NCBI GenBank assembly: GCA_030625775.1
Contig: DAOUQC010000016.1
Coordinates: 1-64,000 of the forward strand
Direction of reading: 5' to 3'
Length of the DNA: 64,000 bases
From: Verrucomicrobiota bacterium
GTDB taxonomy: Bacteria > Verrucomicrobiota > Verrucomicrobiia > Verrucomicrobiales > DEV007
A program made the position numbers and the translations under genes. The notes below the pieces were generated by a model. That model was not told the DNA's origin. It ran no database searches and saw only the letters and a list, made by a program, of their open reading frames with translations. Below, in pieces: positions 44,108-53,363 of the stretch; the first letter of the stretch is position 1, and every line of letters starts with the position of its first letter.

Positions 44108-46756
44108 ATGAAAACACGTCGGTTTGTTCTGATTCTATTATTGGCTCCCTCATTGATTTTTGCAGAGGTGGAGGAAATCCTTACTGACCTGCTCATCGTA
44201 GGTGCCACCGAATCCGGCTGGGCGGCGGCGGTGCAAGCAGCTCGTGGCGGGGGCGAATCGATCACGATTGTTCACGATGGAAAATGGTATGGAGGACAGT
44301 TCACCGAACAAGCGCTGGCCTGTGTCGACGAGAACAAGGGCGTTGGCAAAGTCGGTTGGGGTGTTGACTGGCATCCGATGAAACGGTCCTTTCATCGCTC
44401 GGGTTTGTTCAAGGAATTGATGGATAAGATTGAGGGTCAGAACACGGAGAAATATGGTTCGCCGATGCCGGGCAAACCTTGGCATGGTCCCTCAACATTC
44501 CGCCCTGCAGAAGCGGAAGCAATGTTTCGATTGATGATTCAACCTTATGTTGATTCAGGGCAGATCCAGGTAATCTGGGATCACTATCCAGTGGGAGCCG
44601 AGGTGGTAGACTCGAAACTCAAGGGCGTGAGTTTTGCAAAGCTTGGAACCGATAAAAAAAATCTCCGGGTGCAGGCAAAGCTCACCATCGACGCTTCGGA
44701 TTGGGGAGACGTGATTCAGGTCGCTGGCGCCGCCTACGAGTTTGGGCCGGATCCAGCCAATCGTTACGGAGAAGCGAGCGCTGCAAAGGATCTTTCAGAA
44801 ATCCCGCGCAACGAAATGAACCCGATCACCTGGACGATGATCGTTGAACAGTCGGACGGAGAAACACCGATACCTAAACCCCCGCGTTATGATGATCGAA
44901 ACTATCCGCGTTCTACGGGTTTAGGGCGCAAGGAGTTTGCAGGCCTCAAGTGGGATAGTCTGAAGTCGGGGCTAGGGGGAATTCTCCATTGGCCGGCAGC
45001 GGGGAAAGCATCCAGTCGACAGCTGAGTGTCTACTCGGTCCGGCGTATTGTTGACGGATACAAAAGCAAGGATGGTAAAACTTCCATTCTACTGTGCTAC
45101 ATGAATGGGCAGGATTACCCACTGGAACGTTTGCCGCAGCCGGTCATTGATGCACTTGAAAAGACCGAGGCGGGAGCATCACAAAAGAATATTGTCGAGA
45201 TGACACGGGCTCAGCGTGAAATCATATTCCAGGACGCCAAACAACACTCACTCGGGGTGCTCTATCATCTACAGAATTTTGTTCATGAAAGAGCGAAGGA
45301 TAAAACCAATAGCTTCCGCAGTTTTCATCTCAGTGAAGAGTTTGGCACCGAAGATAACCTGCCACCGAAGCCCTATATTCGTGAGGGATTGCGTATGAAG
45401 GCGATGTATATGATGCGCGAACAGGACGGGCGCAACCGGGATGGAGAAACCAAGGAAAAGGCGAAGGTGCGCTTTGCGAATGTGATGTATCCCGATGCTT
45501 TGTTTCCCTGGCAGTTTCATTACGACTTTCATCGCACGGGGCGAACTTACCTGAGCGATGAAGGGGCTGGCGGTCCGTGGATTGATTATCAAAAACCGAA
45601 TCGTCATACGAAATTCATGAGTGACCGCTCGGTGTTCCCGCTTCGCAGTCTGATCCCTGAAAAAATGGATGGCCTGCTGGGCGCGCAGGGCAATGTCGGC
45701 TTCAGCAGCATCGTCAGCGCAGCGATTCGTTTGCATGACCAGCGCATTCAAATCGGACAGGCGGCAGGAGCAACTGCGGCAGTGGCATTGCTGGCGAATG
45801 TTCAGCCGCGGGAGATGGTGTATGATCGCGCCAAGTTGGAGGCCATTCGTGATGAGCTGTGTGAAGAACGGGAAGGCGCGATTCCAGCCTTGATCTGGCC
45901 TTTCCGGGATCTGGCGGCTGATCATGTGAATTTTGTCGCCATTAATCGCCTGGCGGCGCTTGGGGTTTTGCCGCTCGAATCACGCGAAGTCGATTTCCAT
46001 CCTGATGATCCAGCTGATAAAAGCTGGAGACAGGAAGTTTTGAAAGACAGTGGAGTGAGTGAGGGTTTTGATCTCAAGCCGGAGAGTCGTGGGGTTTTTT
46101 GTCAAAGGGTCTGGGGAAAAATCCAGGCTCTGGGCTGGGATGGATTTGAATTGGAACGAAAAAGCAAACAAGATGCCGACGGGGACGGGATCCTTGATCG
46201 CGATGATGCACTGCTGTTTACCCCTAACAAGCCGATTGTTTTTAAGATCGTAGAGAGTAAACCCACTCCCGATACTGACGGAATTCCGGATGGAAACCTA
46301 GCGCAGAACAAGCCGATACATTTCTATAATTTTTGTGGCCCGCAGGTTCAGCTCAACAAGGGTGAGATTGCTGATATGGGTCAAGCCTTTGCTGAGGGGC
46401 GGGGTTTCGGATGGGAACGTGATCTTGGTAAAAACTACAGAGTGCGTGGCAGAGTGGATGGGCCCCGGGATAGTTTTGTTTTCACTCGCGGCCAGGATAT
46501 GTGGCAATGCTCTCTCGAAAACGGGCGCTACAGGGTTACTGTTTGCATCGGTGATTCTGTTCACGGGCAGCTTGGTCAAAATATCCTTATAGAAGGCAAG
46601 GTAGTAGCAAAAAATACGGATACGGCCGCAGGTCAATTTCAGGAAATGACAGCAATTGTCGAGGTGAGGGACAACCATTTGACGGTGACGCTTGGAAAGT
46701 CGGCTGGCGGATCCAATACGGCCATCAACTGGCTTGCTATTGAAAAGTTGCCTTGA
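44108..46756 (+). CDS. Secreted FAD-dependent oxidoreductase with calcium-type repeat and C-terminal sugar-binding-like domain
   Basis: An 882-residue protein with a signal peptide (TRRFVLILLLAPSLIFA). The FAD-binding N-terminus is DLLIVGATESGWAAAVQAARGG (about residues 27-48); ASDWGDVIQVAGA and the later GLLGAQGNVGFSSIVSAAIRLHDQRIQIGQAAGA (around 520-555) match FAD_oxidored-type proteins. Near residue 690 a thrombospondin-3-like DADGDGILDRDDA calcium loop joins a C-terminal beta domain (about 740-882; VRGRVDGPRDSF, YRVTVCIGDS, TDTAAGQFQEMTAIVEVRD, NTAINWLAIEKL) of the malectin/golvesin type. The gene follows the SDR by 22 bp. Such composites occur in Verrucomicrobiota and Lentisphaerae beside sulfatases and probably act on sugars; the substrate is unknown. 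Confidence 0.9.
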   Translation: MKTRRFVLILLLAPSLIFAEVEEILTDLLIVGATESGWAAAVQAARGGGESITIVHDGKWYGGQFTEQALACVDENKGVGKVGWGVDWHPMKRSFHRSGLFKELMDKIEGQNTEKYGSPMPGKPWHGPSTFRPAEAEAMFRLMIQPYVDSGQIQVIWDHYPVGAEVVDSKLKGVSFAKLGTDKKNLRVQAKLTIDASDWGDVIQVAGAAYEFGPDPANRYGEASAAKDLSEIPRNEMNPITWTMIVEQSDGETPIPKPPRYDDRNYPRSTGLGRKEFAGLKWDSLKSGLGGILHWPAAGKASSRQLSVYSVRRIVDGYKSKDGKTSILLCYMNGQDYPLERLPQPVIDALEKTEAGASQKNIVEMTRAQREIIFQDAKQHSLGVLYHLQNFVHERAKDKTNSFRSFHLSEEFGTEDNLPPKPYIREGLRMKAMYMMREQDGRNRDGETKEKAKVRFANVMYPDALFPWQFHYDFHRTGRTYLSDEGAGGPWIDYQKPNRHTKFMSDRSVFPLRSLIPEKMDGLLGAQGNVGFSSIVSAAIRLHDQRIQIGQAAGATAAVALLANVQPREMVYDRAKLEAIRDELCEEREGAIPALIWPFRDLAADHVNFVAINRLAALGVLPLESREVDFHPDDPADKSWRQEVLKDSGVSEGFDLKPESRGVFCQRVWGKIQALGWDGFELERKSKQDADGDGILDRDDALLFTPNKPIVFKIVESKPTPDTDGIPDGNLAQNKPIHFYNFCGPQVQLNKGEIADMGQAFAEGRGFGWERDLGKNYRVRGRVDGPRDSFVFTRGQDMWQCSLENGRYRVTVCIGDSVHGQLGQNILIEGKVVAKNTDTAAGQFQEMTAIVEVRDNHLTVTLGKSAGGSNTAINWLAIEKLP

Positions 46757-46874
46757 GATATACGACTCAGCTCTTTTCCCTGCCTGTTGCTTATTTTGGA
46801 GGGGTGGGGTGTTTTTGTTCAGATAACAAGATTTTCATTTGTTAGCGGGATGTTTTTTTGGCAAGCTTGATTCC

Positions 46875-49001
46875 ATGCTGTGGTGCGTACGTGTGATGAT
46901 TCCTGTTGTCCCTCTGGGGATGATCATCGCTTTGCTGTATATGTTACAGGCAGGACGGCAATTGGAATTTCGCACGGATGATAATCTGGTGTTTGCCGTG
47001 AGTGAAGAGGTAGGGGGTATTGATCCTTTGATGGTGTTGAGAGGGGCAGAAAGACAAATTGAGTCATTGGTATTTGATCGTCTTTTTCGGCTGGATGACG
47101 AATTGGTGCTTAGAGCAGGCCTGGCGGAGTCCTGGAAGTATCGTCAGCACTTGTCATTTTTTTTCACTGATGAAAAAAATGCGGAGAAAGCTGAGATTCA
47201 AATGATATCCCGGATAGCTGCGGAGAGAGAGCGGAGGCCTGCCGGAAAGTTCAAGCAGGTGAAGCGTGAAGGTTTGTCTCTGAGCATTTCCCTTTCAGCT
47301 TATGATCGTGGAAATGTGAAGGAGGTAATGGATTTTCTCACTGACTTGAAATACCTGCCGGTTCTAAAAGTGCGCTTGAGCATGAAGGGGGCGGTAAGGG
47401 AATCATGGGCGGATTTCAAAAAAAATGCAGCAGAAACGGGGCAGATCAAAAGGGAATGGATCGAGGGCGACCAAGCGGTGGTCCTATTTGTTGCAGGGGA
47501 TGCCGAACAATTTTTGAAAGAGTTGCGTCTTTATTACGAATCCAACCTCAATCTGGATCCCAGGATTGAAATTGTCAGTCAAGCGTCCTGCTTGGATAGG
47601 GCGGAATGGGTGGTGACTCTCAGGGAGGGGCTAGCCTGGCATGATGGCAAGCCCTTCACCGCTGGAGATGTTTTGTTCTCCTACAAAGAATTAACGCATC
47701 CTGTTTCGGCGTCGCCTTTGGTCAGCGTGTTTTCCCACGTAGCATCGCTGCGGATTTTAGGGGAACGTCAGTTTGCGGTGGAGTGTCGCGAGTATTACGC
47801 TCCCATTGCTGAGAGTTGGCAACGGTTGCCTATTTTACCGGCCCATTTGCTGGAAGGGAAAAAAACGGCGGCTGACTGGGAGGATTTTTTCCAGCATCCA
47901 GTGGGGACGGGGGCTTTTGTTTTTGATCAAAGAAGTGAAAATGGTGAGATTTCTTTGAAGCATAATAAAAACTATTTCCGTGGAGTACCCCAGCAGGAGT
48001 TTGTAAAATTCAAGCTGCTGAAAGGTCGTGACGAACGGGCAAGGGGGATGAGAACCGGGGCTATTGACGGTTTGTGGCCAACGGCAAACGAGGGGCGTTT
48101 GATGAGGGAGGATGGAAGGTTTCAGGTAATGAGTGATGTTTTTCGCAAACAGACTTTACTGGCGTGGAATCTGGATCGTCCGGTATTCCAGAAGACAGCA
48201 GTCCGCCAGGCCTTGGCTCATTTGTCAGATGTAAGTTCTTTGTTTGAAGTTGAAACCAGTGAAGGGCTTCGTTTGTGTCGGGGGATTTTCTATCCGGGCA
48301 GCTGGTTTTGTGAAAATGGGATTAAGCTTCCGGATTTGGATCTGGAAAGAGGAGAAGTTTTGTTGCAAGGGGCGGGTTGGACACGTGATGAAGGATTTTG
48401 GAAAAACCCGGCAGGAGAAGTTCTGGCTTTTAAGCTTTTGGTTGATAGGGACTCTCCGAAGCATATGAAGCTAGCCGGGCTATTGGTGGATGGGTGGCAG
48501 GCCCGGGGGATTTCAGTGGAAGTGCTTGCTCTAAAATGGACTGAGTTGGTGGCTGATCATTTGCAAAGCCGGGACTTTGATGCGGCTCTGGTCAGTTGGG
48601 ATTTAAGCCCCGGACGGGATCAATATCGAGTCTGGCATTCTTCTGAAAGTGGGCGTGGTGGTGGGAATATTTTTGCTTTGCGTAATGAGCGGGTTGATCA
48701 ACTGTTGCAATTATTGAAAACAGAATCGGAAGCAGAAGAAGTCAAGCGTCTGGCCGAAAGTCTGCAAAAAAAAATCCTAGAGCTGCAGCCCTGTCTGTTT
48801 TTGACTGAAAGTGCCGAATCGATGATATTGAGAGATGGAGCGGTGCGTCTGGCTCGACCACTAAAGGCCGGGGCTTGGTCGGATGAAAATCCAAGGATGA
48901 CTCCCGCGGGTTTGCAGAATGAATGGCTGTGGTGGAGAAGTCGGAAGCAAGCATCGAAACGCAGTGAAAATAGCAGGGGATTGATACCTGAAGGTAAATG
49001 A
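46875..49001 (+). CDS. ABC transporter substrate-binding protein (family 5, peptide type) with a large insertion
   Basis: About 708 residues from ATG 46875, which opens a membrane segment (VRVMIPVVPLGMIIALLYML); TTG 46839 would add 12 residues. This is an SBP_bac_5 (OppA/DppA-like) protein: AVSEEVGGIDPL at the front, LAESWKYRQ, WVVTLREGLAWHDGKPFTAGDVLFSY, HPVGTGAFVF and KKNYFRG-like HNKNYFRG. Unlike normal members, a stretch of about 148 residues (47150-47595) splits the standard '..ESW..T..LR.GV.WHDG' block. The insert is charged, with a mixed alpha/beta look (SLSISLSAYDRGNVKEVMDFL, AVVLFVAGDAEQFLKELRLY). Downstream are a fused permease and an ATPase-like gene. A membrane anchor instead of a cleaved signal seems likely. 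Confidence 0.88.
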   Translation: MLWCVRVMIPVVPLGMIIALLYMLQAGRQLEFRTDDNLVFAVSEEVGGIDPLMVLRGAERQIESLVFDRLFRLDDELVLRAGLAESWKYRQHLSFFFTDEKNAEKAEIQMISRIAAERERRPAGKFKQVKREGLSLSISLSAYDRGNVKEVMDFLTDLKYLPVLKVRLSMKGAVRESWADFKKNAAETGQIKREWIEGDQAVVLFVAGDAEQFLKELRLYYESNLNLDPRIEIVSQASCLDRAEWVVTLREGLAWHDGKPFTAGDVLFSYKELTHPVSASPLVSVFSHVASLRILGERQFAVECREYYAPIAESWQRLPILPAHLLEGKKTAADWEDFFQHPVGTGAFVFDQRSENGEISLKHNKNYFRGVPQQEFVKFKLLKGRDERARGMRTGAIDGLWPTANEGRLMREDGRFQVMSDVFRKQTLLAWNLDRPVFQKTAVRQALAHLSDVSSLFEVETSEGLRLCRGIFYPGSWFCENGIKLPDLDLERGEVLLQGAGWTRDEGFWKNPAGEVLAFKLLVDRDSPKHMKLAGLLVDGWQARGISVEVLALKWTELVADHLQSRDFDAALVSWDLSPGRDQYRVWHSSESGRGGGNIFALRNERVDQLLQLLKTESEAEEVKRLAESLQKKILELQPCLFLTESAESMILRDGAVRLARPLKAGAWSDENPRMTPAGLQNEWLWWRSRKQASKRSENSRGLIPEGK

Positions 49002-49008
49002 AAATTTG

Positions 49009-50838
49009 ATGGCAAGACGTGATATCAGTATGGCTGAGTATTTGGTTGATCTAAGTCTGAAGTATTTTTTCAGAGCAGTGATCGCCGGGCTTCTCATTGG
49101 TCTTTTCATTGAGGTGTTGATGAAGATTGATGCATTGCATCAGGGGAATGATTTGCAGGATCATGTGTGGGCATTGGCTTTGAATGTTTTGTCAGGTGAC
49201 GGGGAAACAAGTGGATTGAAGAACTTTGCCCGGGAGATTGCTGGAGCGGCGGTCGAGAGCTTGAAGCTGTGGCTGTTGGCAGCATTTCTGGTAATGGGCT
49301 TCGGGCTTTCTCTTGGGCTGGTGTCCGGGCGCCTGGTTTTTGCCACACGGAACTGGCGTTCGGGGGGGCGGGGAATTGGGAGGGTGTTATTATTTACATG
49401 TTTTTTGTTGAATTGGCTGCCCGCTTTTGCTTTGGCCAGTTGCCTGGTTTTTTATCTGGTCGACTTTCAGGAGCTTCCTGTGTTCGACTTGATCAAAAAT
49501 GGAACCCGGGGTTTGAGTGGTCATGATTCATGGGTGGCAGAGTGGTGGCGCCTGTTGTTACCTGCGGGGGTGGTGGCGGTTTCCGGTATTGCCTGGCTGG
49601 CAAAAGAGGTGGCGTACATAATACGTTCGGTTTGTGAAGCGGGCTATGTGGGTGTCGCTGAGGAGCGGGGTTTGACTGGAGATTATTTATACTTCTCTTA
49701 TATAGTAAAAAATTCTCTGCGTAGCATCGGTAGCGTGGTTCTTCACAGCCTGCCTTATTTATTAAGCTCGTTGATTCTTGTTGAATGGGTATTTCGGTTT
49801 CCGGGATTGGGCTTGATGACCCGGACGGCAGTTGTGAATGATGATTTTGTCAGGCTTCTTGCTATGGGTGGGGTGTGGGCAATGATAGTGACGCTTGGTG
49901 GTTTTCTATTGGAAGTATTTTTTGGTTTTATAGATAAAAAAACCCGTGAAGAAGGCGGCTTGAGCGTGATGACCATGCAAAAGCTTGAATGGGGCGTAGC
50001 TGCCGACCTGACAGGAGAGATTAGAACAAAGCGGGAAAAGCAGTGGCGGAGGATGAAACAGGCGGGCTTGGTGGTTTTTCTGCTTTGTGGTGTGTTGTGG
50101 GGAATTTATCTGTTTGCAGAGTTTCGCTGGGGCTTGGTGGTACAAGTTGAGATGGAGGGAGGCGATGGGGGGGCGTTGATTCAATCCGATGCCTGGCGGG
50201 TTCTGGCTGCAGCAAATGGAACTCTGGTGATGTGCCTGGTGGTCAGCATTTTGACAGTGCTGTTTTCTTTTTGTGTAGCAGGTGTGCTGGGTTGGTTGGG
50301 CGGTTGGCGGGCCTATTGTCTGCTAGCCAAAATTCATGCGGCTGCATTTACTGTTCCGGTGATGTTCTGGTTGCTTGCCAGCCTGACAGTATCGGGTGCT
50401 GGGTTCTGGTCGATGGTTTTGCTCCTGGTTTGTATTGGCGGTTCATTGGGAGTGGGGGTGCTCAGTCGGTGGTTTCTCGATATTGAATTTCAAGGCTGGG
50501 TGGAGGCGGCAAGGGCTTCGGGTTTGAGTCGGGGCAAAATTTTTCTCTGGCATTTTGTTCCCGCACTTTGGCCTCGGATGTTTTCAAGGATGTTGTTGTT
50601 GCTGCCGCCGGTGCTTCTATGTGTGGTAGCAATGGATTTTTCGCATGTGCTTGAAGAAGGGGGCGGGACAAAGCGTTGGGGCGGGCTGATGGAACAAGGG
50701 GTCGGTCAAATATGGGAGGATCCTCAGCTGCTGTTTTTTTCGGTGACAGCCGTATGGGGGGGCGCGGTGTTTTTTGATCTCATTGCAAGTTGGGCAAAAT
50801 CTGAAGGAGGGGATCGGCTCGGTCCGGATATTTATTGA
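49009..50838 (+). CDS. Fused OppB-OppC-type ABC permease
   Basis: A 609-residue multi-spanning protein that holds both permease halves of a peptide-type importer. The first half (to about 325) has the usual OppB-like layout with an EAA-type loop EERGLTGDYLYFSYIVKNSLRSIGS and LLSSLILVEWVFRFPGLG; the second half (from about 345) has the OppC-like EAARASGLSRGKIFLWHFVPALWPRM loop. Normally these are two genes. A charged linker (KTREEGGLSVMTMQKL...RTKREKQWRR) joins them. ATG 49009 is preferred over the TTG just before it. It lies 7 bp after the binding-protein gene and abuts the ATPase-like gene (stop 50838, start 50839). Confidence 0.9.
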   Translation: MARRDISMAEYLVDLSLKYFFRAVIAGLLIGLFIEVLMKIDALHQGNDLQDHVWALALNVLSGDGETSGLKNFAREIAGAAVESLKLWLLAAFLVMGFGLSLGLVSGRLVFATRNWRSGGRGIGRVLLFTCFLLNWLPAFALASCLVFYLVDFQELPVFDLIKNGTRGLSGHDSWVAEWWRLLLPAGVVAVSGIAWLAKEVAYIIRSVCEAGYVGVAEERGLTGDYLYFSYIVKNSLRSIGSVVLHSLPYLLSSLILVEWVFRFPGLGLMTRTAVVNDDFVRLLAMGGVWAMIVTLGGFLLEVFFGFIDKKTREEGGLSVMTMQKLEWGVAADLTGEIRTKREKQWRRMKQAGLVVFLLCGVLWGIYLFAEFRWGLVVQVEMEGGDGGALIQSDAWRVLAAANGTLVMCLVVSILTVLFSFCVAGVLGWLGGWRAYCLLAKIHAAAFTVPVMFWLLASLTVSGAGFWSMVLLLVCIGGSLGVGVLSRWFLDIEFQGWVEAARASGLSRGKIFLWHFVPALWPRMFSRMLLLLPPVLLCVVAMDFSHVLEEGGGTKRWGGLMEQGVGQIWEDPQLLFFSVTAVWGGAVFFDLIASWAKSEGGDRLGPDIY

Positions 50839-51747
50839 ATGGGGAAAATGAGCAGTAAAATGAACCAGTCCTCTCTTCTGCAGGTTAGCCGACTCAGTCT
50901 TGTCCGGCCTTCCATCCTGGGCAATGAGCGTGTAGTGGTGCGTGACCTTTCCTTTTCAATGTCGAGGGGACAGGTGCTTGCTCTGACGGGGGAAGATGGT
51001 GGGGGGATGTCTGCGCTGGCACAAGCAGTGGCGAGTTTGTTGCCGCGTGGGGGGTTGAAGATAAAGCAGGGGAATATTTATTTGGATGGAGAGGATCTGG
51101 TGAGGATGTCTCCTCGCAAGCTTCGGCGGCGCAGGCTTGCCTATTTTGATCGTCATTCGACTCAAATGCTCAATCCCCTGTGCAGTATCAGGCAGCACTT
51201 GATGGAAGCCGTTGCTTGGAAAACGATCGATGAGCGTAAATCCGGGCAAAATCTGATTCAGGGGCTCTACCAGGTGGGTTTGGCTGAGCCAGAGTCGATC
51301 TTGGACCGGTTACCGGCGGAATTGTCCCCGGAAGAACTGAGTCGGGTGGTGATTGCCATGGCCTTGCAGGCGGGGGCGGATTTTATCGTGGTGGATGAAA
51401 TGACGGCCCATCTGGATGCTACGGTCGAGCAGCAGATTCTCGAACTGCTGGTGGATTTGAAAAACCAGCAGGGGCTTTCCATTTTGCTTGTTACCCATCA
51501 TCCCGGCATCATTGAAGCGATGGCAGATGTCCTGGTGGTGATGTTTGAAGGAGTGGCAATAGAGCAGGGCAAGGTGGCCGATGTTTTGTTCGCCTCAGGG
51601 AATCCCTACGTCAAAGCATTGATGGGCTGTGCTCCACGCCTTGGAGAAGGTCGGCTTCGACTTGGAGAGATCACCGAAGCTGAGCGTCAAGCGGCAAAGG
51701 CACTTGTGGAGCAACACTTGTCCAGCAAACCAGAGGGTGCAGGCTGA
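50839..51747 (+). CDS. ABC ATPase-like subunit with degenerate Walker A and signature motifs
   Basis: A 302-residue OppD/DppD-like protein that starts at the base after the permease stop. Walker A should read G-x-x-G-x-G-K-[ST]; here it is G51-E-D-G-G-G-M57-S58, so the ATP-phosphate-binding lysine is Met. The signature is LSPEELSRVV in place of LSGGQ-x-x-R. The Q-loop region, Walker B FIVVDEMTAHLD with its Glu, and the H-loop THHPG are kept. The tail GLQVGL-type peptide-transport C-terminus ends with NPYVKALMGCAPRLGE, as in OppD. Either this subunit cannot hydrolyse ATP by the normal mechanism or it works with a second ATPase coded elsewhere; no second gene lies in this cluster. Confidence 0.88.
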   Translation: MGKMSSKMNQSSLLQVSRLSLVRPSILGNERVVVRDLSFSMSRGQVLALTGEDGGGMSALAQAVASLLPRGGLKIKQGNIYLDGEDLVRMSPRKLRRRRLAYFDRHSTQMLNPLCSIRQHLMEAVAWKTIDERKSGQNLIQGLYQVGLAEPESILDRLPAELSPEELSRVVIAMALQAGADFIVVDEMTAHLDATVEQQILELLVDLKNQQGLSILLVTHHPGIIEAMADVLVVMFEGVAIEQGKVADVLFASGNPYVKALMGCAPRLGEGRLRLGEITEAERQAAKALVEQHLSSKPEGAG

Positions 51748-51798: not shown

Positions 51799-51828
51799 GA
51801 ATACAAACCAGAAGAATACAAACCAGAA
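51799..51828 (+). repeat. 15-bp tandem duplication abutting the gpmI start codon
   Basis: GAATACAAACCAGAA occurs twice without error or gap at 51799-51813 and 51814-51828. The last A of the second copy is the first base of the gpmI ATG. The repeat replaces any normal Shine-Dalgarno region; 15 bp is close to two of the heptads seen elsewhere in this window. Confidence 0.95.
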
Positions 51829-53363
51829 TGTCGAAGAAACCAGCAGTATTGATTATCAGGGATGGGTGGGCTGAAAACCCGGGCGGAGAGGGCAGTGCTA
51901 AAAAAGATGGTAATGCCACATTGCTAGCGGATACCCCCTATCACGATCACTTGTTCTCTACTTACCCCGCAAGCCGGATCAGCGGCAGTGGAACTGATGT
52001 GGGATTGCCTGATGGGCAGATGGGAAATTCAGAAGTAGGGCATTTAAACCTTGGGGCAGGACGAATTGTTTATCAGGACCTTACGAGAATTAATAAGGCA
52101 ATCGAGGAAAAAGAATTGGCAGCTAATTCCGTGCTGCTTGAAGCTTTTAAAAAAGCCAAAGGGCAGCGTCTGCATCTGATCGGTTTGGTGTCTGATGGCG
52201 GAGTGCACAGTCACCAGGAGCATTTGGTGGCGCTGGCAGAGGCAGCTAAAGGTGCGGGTTGTGACGACATCATGGTGCATGCGATCACTGATGGGCGGGA
52301 CACTTCACCGACAGGAGGCGAAAAATACGTCGGTTACGTTGAAGACAAACTAGGTGAGATAGGGGTGCGGATCGGCACGGTGATCGGGCGCTATTACGCG
52401 ATGGATAGGGACAATCGTTGGGAGCGCAGCCAATTGGCCTGGGATGCGATTGTGAACGGGGTTGGCGATTTTTGTGAAATATTGCCCTCGGATGCGATTG
52501 CCCATCAGTATAAAGAGGACAAAACCGATGAGTTCCTGCTGCCGATGATTTTTTCCGAGCCGGATCAGCAACGGGTAAATGATGGTGACGTGGTATTGTT
52601 TTTCAATTTCAGGGCGGACAGGGCTCGTCAGTTGTCACGGGCTTTTCTCGAAGAGGGCTTTGACGGCTTTGAACGCGGGGTCTGGCCGCAAGTAAACTAC
52701 GTCACTCTGACGGAGTACGATGAGCATTATGACTGTCCGGTGGTGTTCCCTCCCGAAAAGCTTGAAAAAGTGCTCGGAGATGTTGTTGCCAGTGCTGGCT
52801 GCACGCAGTTGCGTATCGCTGAGACGGAGAAATACCCCCATGTGACCTATTTTTTTAACGGCGGGGAAGAGCAGCCCTTTGAAGGGGAGGACCGGGCGAT
52901 CATTCCTTCACCCAAGGTAGCGACTTACGATTTGCAACCGGAGATGAGTGCCGGGGAAGTAACGGACACGGTGGTGGCACGGATTGAGAACTACGATTTG
53001 ATGATTTTAAACTACGCTAACCCGGACATGGTCGGGCACACAGGAGACGTGGATGCGGCGATCAAGGCAGTGGAGACGATTGATGCATGTGTGAAGAGGG
53101 TGGTGGAGCGGGTAATGGAGTTGGATGGCAAGCTTCTCATCACCTCTGATCACGGAAACTGTGAGGTGATGCGTAACTCTGACGGTTCACCCCAGACGGC
53201 GCATACCACCAATCTGGTGCCAATGATATATGTCGCTGCCGATGCCGATAGCATAAAGCTTAATGACGGTATTTTGGCCGACATAGCACCGACGCTGTTG
53301 GACATGATGGGATTGCAGCAACCCTCCGTCATGACCGGCCATAGCCTGTTGGAAAAAAAGTAG
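51828..53363 (+). CDS. gpmI: 2,3-bisphosphoglycerate-independent phosphoglycerate mutase
   Basis: A 511-residue enzyme of glycolysis and gluconeogenesis that interconverts 3- and 2-phosphoglycerate using two Mn ions. The front AVLIIRDGWAENPGGEGSA has metal ligand D12, and the catalytic serine is S68 in GQMGNSEVGHLNLGAGR. LVSDGGVHSHQEHL, HAITDGRDTSPTGG, FNFRADRARQL and the C-terminal LNYANPDMVGHTGD and ITSDHGNCEVM metal blocks are all present. Length is normal. The start ATG overlaps the preceding 15-bp repeat. It may be read with the transporter genes upstream, 80 bp away, but nothing links them functionally. Confidence 0.97.
   Translation: MSKKPAVLIIRDGWAENPGGEGSAKKDGNATLLADTPYHDHLFSTYPASRISGSGTDVGLPDGQMGNSEVGHLNLGAGRIVYQDLTRINKAIEEKELAANSVLLEAFKKAKGQRLHLIGLVSDGGVHSHQEHLVALAEAAKGAGCDDIMVHAITDGRDTSPTGGEKYVGYVEDKLGEIGVRIGTVIGRYYAMDRDNRWERSQLAWDAIVNGVGDFCEILPSDAIAHQYKEDKTDEFLLPMIFSEPDQQRVNDGDVVLFFNFRADRARQLSRAFLEEGFDGFERGVWPQVNYVTLTEYDEHYDCPVVFPPEKLEKVLGDVVASAGCTQLRIAETEKYPHVTYFFNGGEEQPFEGEDRAIIPSPKVATYDLQPEMSAGEVTDTVVARIENYDLMILNYANPDMVGHTGDVDAAIKAVETIDACVKRVVERVMELDGKLLITSDHGNCEVMRNSDGSPQTAHTTNLVPMIYVAADADSIKLNDGILADIAPTLLDMMGLQQPSVMTGHSLLEKK

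Follow-up and report, generated by a model that had tools for sequence, protein, structure and literature searches.

Joint loss of catalytic motifs in two unlinked, probably partnered ATPases of an Opp/Dpp-type importer of Verrucomicrobiales

In the Escherichia coli importer DppABCDF (PDB 8z1v-8z1z), the subunits DppD and DppF are both competent ATPases, and both bear [4Fe-4S] clusters at the C terminus (PMC12136057). Departures from two consensus ATP sites have been described elsewhere. The fused sugar-importer ATPases RbsA and NupO combine a Lys-less Walker A with an altered signature, and only one of their two sites is described as degenerate (PMC11466899); heterodimeric exporters with one degenerate site keep one consensus, active site (PMC7756269). 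Here, we describe an importer locus from a 64,000-nucleotide stretch (the window) of a Verrucomicrobiota genome (G000) and compare it with genomes of the same family (f1) and of other families of the same order (f3, f4, and f5).

The transporter genes form a tight forward-strand cluster comprising a substrate-binding protein (SBP), a fused permease, and, as the last transporter gene, an OppD-type ATPase (D), followed by gpmI. The SBP (46839..49001; 720 aa) has an N-terminal helix resembling a membrane anchor and matches SBP_bac_5 (Pfam PF00496, 3.9e-46, residues 253-606). The permease (49006..50838; 610 aa) joins an OppB-like half to an OppC-like half (Pfam BPD_transp_1; NikC/Opp2C at residues 398-594); its C half keeps an EAA loop (WVEAARASGLSRGKIFLWH), and alignment shows EAA-type loops in both halves. 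As expected of an Opp/Dpp (PepT) importer, the operon encodes an SBP of the SBP_bac_5 family, a pair of BPD_transp_1 halves, and an ATPase of OppD type. Orthologs of the operon SBP occur in 41 of 75 f1 genomes and, at the threshold used, in 85 of 332 genomes from the order, every one of them in f1 or f4, and the gene order SBP-B-C-D is maintained across f1. The gpmI gene (phosphoglycerate mutase; 51828..53363, + strand), a conserved downstream neighbor of D in several genera (L051, L052, L058-L060, L062, L154, and L160), is probably not part of the complex. Upstream of the SBP gene lies an FAD-dependent oxidoreductase-like gene (44108-46756), which is syntenic in the congener G002 (L051 7564-9891).

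The SBP also contains an insert (residues ~95-258 by alignment; 47121..47612), about 130 to 160 residues long and conserved in two families of the order. It is predicted, with low confidence, to form two tandem beta-alpha-beta-beta-alpha units; a single-sequence AF2 model (pLDDT 59) gave weak ferredoxin-fold matches. An earlier reading of the window, made from its sequence only, counted the insert and the permease fusion among the signs of an undescribed system. Both features are real, but the alignment shows the insert throughout f1 and also in f4 relatives with canonical ATPases, and fused permeases are likewise found in G004, G038, and G051, whose ATPases are canonical. Because canonical-ATPase relatives carry both, we rejected insert and fusion as evidence of lost pumping or of a new system. 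Other arrangements were seen in the order. In the f4 genus g24, a single protein of ~305 residues replaces the fused permease between the SBP and a canonical D (L163 4972-5892, L164 5089-6006, and L165 6465-7382). In G037, a close canonical D homolog sits beside a second OppD/OppF pair, making three ATPases in a row (L054 7030-9916), and no insert-type SBP was detected in the genome.

Subunit D (50839..51747, + strand; 302 aa) begins at an ATG that abuts the permease stop codon. It matches Pfam ABC_tran at 2.4e-15 (57.8 bits versus a gathering score of 25) and the NCBIfam NikD, CntD, YejF, and OppD models with E values from 1e-47 to 1e-37, none of them reaching its curated cutoff; the best of these matches, NikD, scores 162 bits versus a cutoff of 318.7. 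Among solved structures, chains of DppD and OppD are its best relatives, and a scan of contigs returned a distant Tenericutes ABC gene as the sole match. An AlphaFold model of D alone had a pLDDT of 40 and was set aside. The profile matches indicate that D is a genuine ABC ATPase, albeit one with degenerate motifs, and the 302-aa translation bears out how the sequence-only reading had read them. Walker A (50989..51012) is GEDGGGMS (G51-E-D-G-G-G-M57-S58), which fails GxxGxGK[ST] through replacement of Lys57 by Met; the signature position (51322..51336) fails the LSGGQ test and reads LSPEE, in the context L162-S-P-E-E-L-S-R169. Walker B (FIVVDE, 51382..51399) retains Asp186 and Glu187, and the H-loop His220 (T-H220, 51496..51498) is retained in G000 but in only 4 of 33 f1 orthologs. 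Alignment with homologs reveals a further loss, that of the Q-loop Gln (FDRH versus FQEP), which the sequence-only reading did not mention. Automatic annotation of D as a "peptide import ATP-binding protein" would probably misstate its function.

Whether Met57 is conserved was proposed as a check on this reading, with Lys in the orthologs taken as the mark of a single-strain mutation. The outcome is mixed. The congener G002 also has Met, in a D protein ~66% identical to that of G000 and encoded by different DNA; this shared Met in a different surrounding sequence led us to reject a single-strain mutation or a sequencing or assembly error. On the other hand, Lys is kept in 27 of the 33 orthologs in the degenerate D clade, and its loss is therefore not a universal f1 trait. 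It is replaced by Met (G000 and G002), Ile (G061), Val (G082), Pro (G033), and Cys (G003), representing at least five independent losses by tree position; the two congeners of G000 differ in this respect (GEDGAGMS in G002, GEEGCGKS in G001). Yet orthologs with Lys have no LSGGQ and, in most cases, no His in the H-loop. LSGGQ is lost in all 33 f1 orthologs outside G004, the Gly-Gly pair of the signature being intact in none, while Walker B Asp persists in 25, Walker B Glu in 22, and D-loop Asp in 31 of the 33. The emphasis of the sequence-only reading on Met57 is misplaced: loss of the Lys is a late step within a co-degeneration that extends across the family.

The sequence-only reading also noted that the cluster has no second ATPase, which is correct within the gene cluster, and offered two options: a regulatory or sensory complex in place of a pump, or a canonical subunit encoded elsewhere. 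The genome-wide search for an orphan OppF-like gene that it called for found one. Among 43 ABC-ATPase matches in G000, one of the closest own-genome matches to D is an orphan OppF-type gene, F (G000:C156:7207-7992, minus strand; protein P0002), whose best NCBIfam model is OppF (1.4e-60). It lies between thiG and rodA, directly upstream of rodA, and supplies from an unlinked position the second, OppF-type ATPase of an Opp/Dpp (PepT) importer. A partner elsewhere thus exists, but its own motifs have decayed as well (GEQHSGKM at Walker A, FPDK at the Q-loop, LNPGQ at the signature position, and CHD at Walker B). We therefore rejected a dedicated canonical partner elsewhere in G000; rescue by such a subunit is unsupported, and the non-pump option gains. 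G000 also has canonical OppD/F genes, including OppF paralogs on C94 and C96. Since other OppD/OppF paralogs in these genomes have canonical motifs, a systematic sequencing artifact is disfavored.

Orthologs of F lie directly upstream of rodA in f1, f3, f4, and f5 genomes and are canonical in f3, f4, and f5. Among f1 genomes with readable rodA loci, F is present in all 35 that have the operon and in 1 of 10 in which the operon was not detected (Fisher P = 1e-8; 0.005 when collapsed by genus). In G015 and G018, thiG adjoins rodA and F is absent. The single genome with F but no detected SBP operon is G008, an assembly in 720 contigs, where a canonical orphan F lies upstream of rodA (L189). The rodA gene next to orphan F in G002 (L169 4456-5643) contains an in-frame TAA, which is either an assembly error or a real break. 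The signature Ser of F is kept in 2 of 35 sequences and the D-loop Asp in all 35.

For each genome, D was matched with F, and both composite sites of the pair were scored for eight catalytic residues, site 1 being the D Walker motifs with the F signature and site 2 the F Walker motifs with the D signature. The 11 pairs in which D is canonical, of which ten belong to other families and one (G004) to f1, all score 8/8 at both sites. Every one of the remaining 31 f1 pairs is degenerate at both sites, with best scores of 6 and 5 of 8, and the architecture of one consensus and one degenerate site is found in 0/31. No composite site in these 31 pairs combines Lys with both Walker B acidic residues (Asp and Glu) and with the Ser and Gly of the signature; even a single consensus ATP site, as in Opp/Dpp, is absent from G000 and from all 31. 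Decay has usually gone further at site 2 than at site 1. In G000, site 1 is without Lys, Gln, and signature Ser, and site 2 is without Walker A Ser/Thr, Gln, Walker B Asp and Glu, and signature Gly; in G001, site 1 is short of the Q-loop Gln and signature Ser only. In the trees, the 33 degenerate D rows group in a single supported clade, as do the 34 degenerate F rows, and the branching of one clade mirrors that of the other; D and F pairwise distances correlate at an r of 0.83 (0/1,000 permutations as high), a value that still includes shared descent. Common descent accounts for part of the tree mirroring and of the shared presence, and r by itself would be no proof of partnership. The stronger argument that D and F are partners is that two unlinked genes went from canonical to degenerate together, although the tree shows only one such change. 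Co-degeneration can thus reveal unlinked partners.

The reading that we favor, with some confidence, is that these genes encode a conserved heterodimeric pseudo-ATPase importer, which would no longer pump by repeated ATP hydrolysis and would serve instead, without hydrolysis, as a receptor, gate, or scaffold. The complex would consist of the Opp/Dpp-type parts SBP, B, C, D, and F, with D and F paired as a heterodimer that would dock on the permease at its EAA loops; the D-F contact is suggested by the genomics. Residues for ATP hydrolysis being lost at both composite sites, the pair would hydrolyze ATP poorly or not at all, and ligand binding by the SBP may set the state of the membrane receptor, gate, or scaffold. 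Lineages that keep the Walker A Lys of D perhaps bind nucleotide statically at the D site; in G000, Lys57Met probably weakens that binding.

The strongest competitor is a slow but real transporter, in which site 1 still binds and occasionally hydrolyzes ATP or ATP binding alone drives the stroke, after the manner of asymmetric ABC transporters. We regard it as unlikely but worth serious attention: D often keeps Lys and the Walker B residues, site 1 of G001 is short of two residues only, degeneration of one site is common among transporters (PMC7756269), and in TmrAB the binding of ATP can power translocation (PMC7205462). With Lys in 27/33 D proteins and site 1 the less decayed, slow hydrolysis in some species is possible. 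However, asymmetric transporters keep one consensus site, and none of the 31 degenerate pairs does; the signature Ser of F and the H-loop His of D are rare, Lys has been lost repeatedly from D proteins that were nonetheless retained, and the window species is itself without it.

The degenerate genes remain constrained. Nei-Gojobori dN/dS values, which are rough because dS is near saturation, range from 0.08 to 0.24 for D and 0.03 to 0.15 for F in degenerate pairs and from 0.03 to 0.15 for D and 0.04 to 0.13 for F in canonical relatives. The 68 degenerate D and F ORFs are stop-free except for one stop, internal or terminal, in the F of G067. These data indicate purifying selection on D and F despite the loss of catalytic residues, and pseudogene decay is disfavored by dN/dS and by the intact ORFs. 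They bear directly on the view that the transporter is in slow decay under relaxed selection, its function gone or being lost. Degenerate D and F do have long branches, the system was not detected in 34 of 75 f1 genomes (some of them incomplete), and dN/dS of D is somewhat higher than in canonical pairs. Nevertheless, dN/dS stays far below 1, F is constrained about as much as canonical F, the 68 degenerate ORFs contain a single stop among them, synteny of the operon has been kept across f1, and the D-loop Asp is nearly invariant; we consider slow decay improbable. There is a similarly small chance that D pairs with one of the canonical OppF paralogs present in G000 (C94 or C96) to form a hybrid with one working site, since a dedicated F exists with matching distribution, tree, and degeneration, and such a pairing would put the Walker site of the canonical F opposite LSPEE and its signature opposite the Lys-less Walker A of D.

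For the pseudo-ATPase importer, we suggest, tentatively and as rather less probable than the reading favored above, that a complete importer was converted once, early in the family, from an ATP pump to a non-hydrolytic receptor or scaffold by joint motif loss in its two unlinked ATPases, possibly tied to cell elongation through the fixed linkage of F to rodA. This linkage hints at a role in cell wall elongation, but the gene order is weak evidence because F sits there in canonical relatives too. Those canonical relatives next door offer a natural experiment on what nucleotide-binding domains do beyond burning ATP.

Compared with OppABCDF and DppABCDF, the locus shares a family 5 SBP, two permease halves with EAA loops, and OppD- and OppF-type ATPases; it differs from DppABCDF in that both G000 ATPases are degenerate, F is unlinked, the SBP bears an insert, and the permease is fused. 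The C-terminal four-Cys [4Fe-4S] motif is absent (the only Cys residues are 115 and 264 in D and 42, 150, and 178 in F), and a C-terminal Cys cluster is absent from the canonical relative G038 as well. The metal or opine importer ATPases NikD/NikE and CntD/CntF are short (~230 to 270 residues), as here, but D falls far below the NikD curated cutoff and the motifs of D and F are degenerate. RbsA and NupO likewise have an importer ATP site without the Walker A Lys, whereas in D/F both sites are degenerate; heterodimeric exporters also show asymmetric decay of two sites, but no D/F pair keeps a consensus site. The literature searched, which left subscription papers mostly outside, describes no importer with both ATP sites degenerate. 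One dead ATP site is well known; two importer ATPases that are jointly degenerate yet constrained across many genera are apparently undescribed in that literature. The complex derives from an Opp/Dpp importer and has the build of one, but it departs from that type in having no consensus ATP site.
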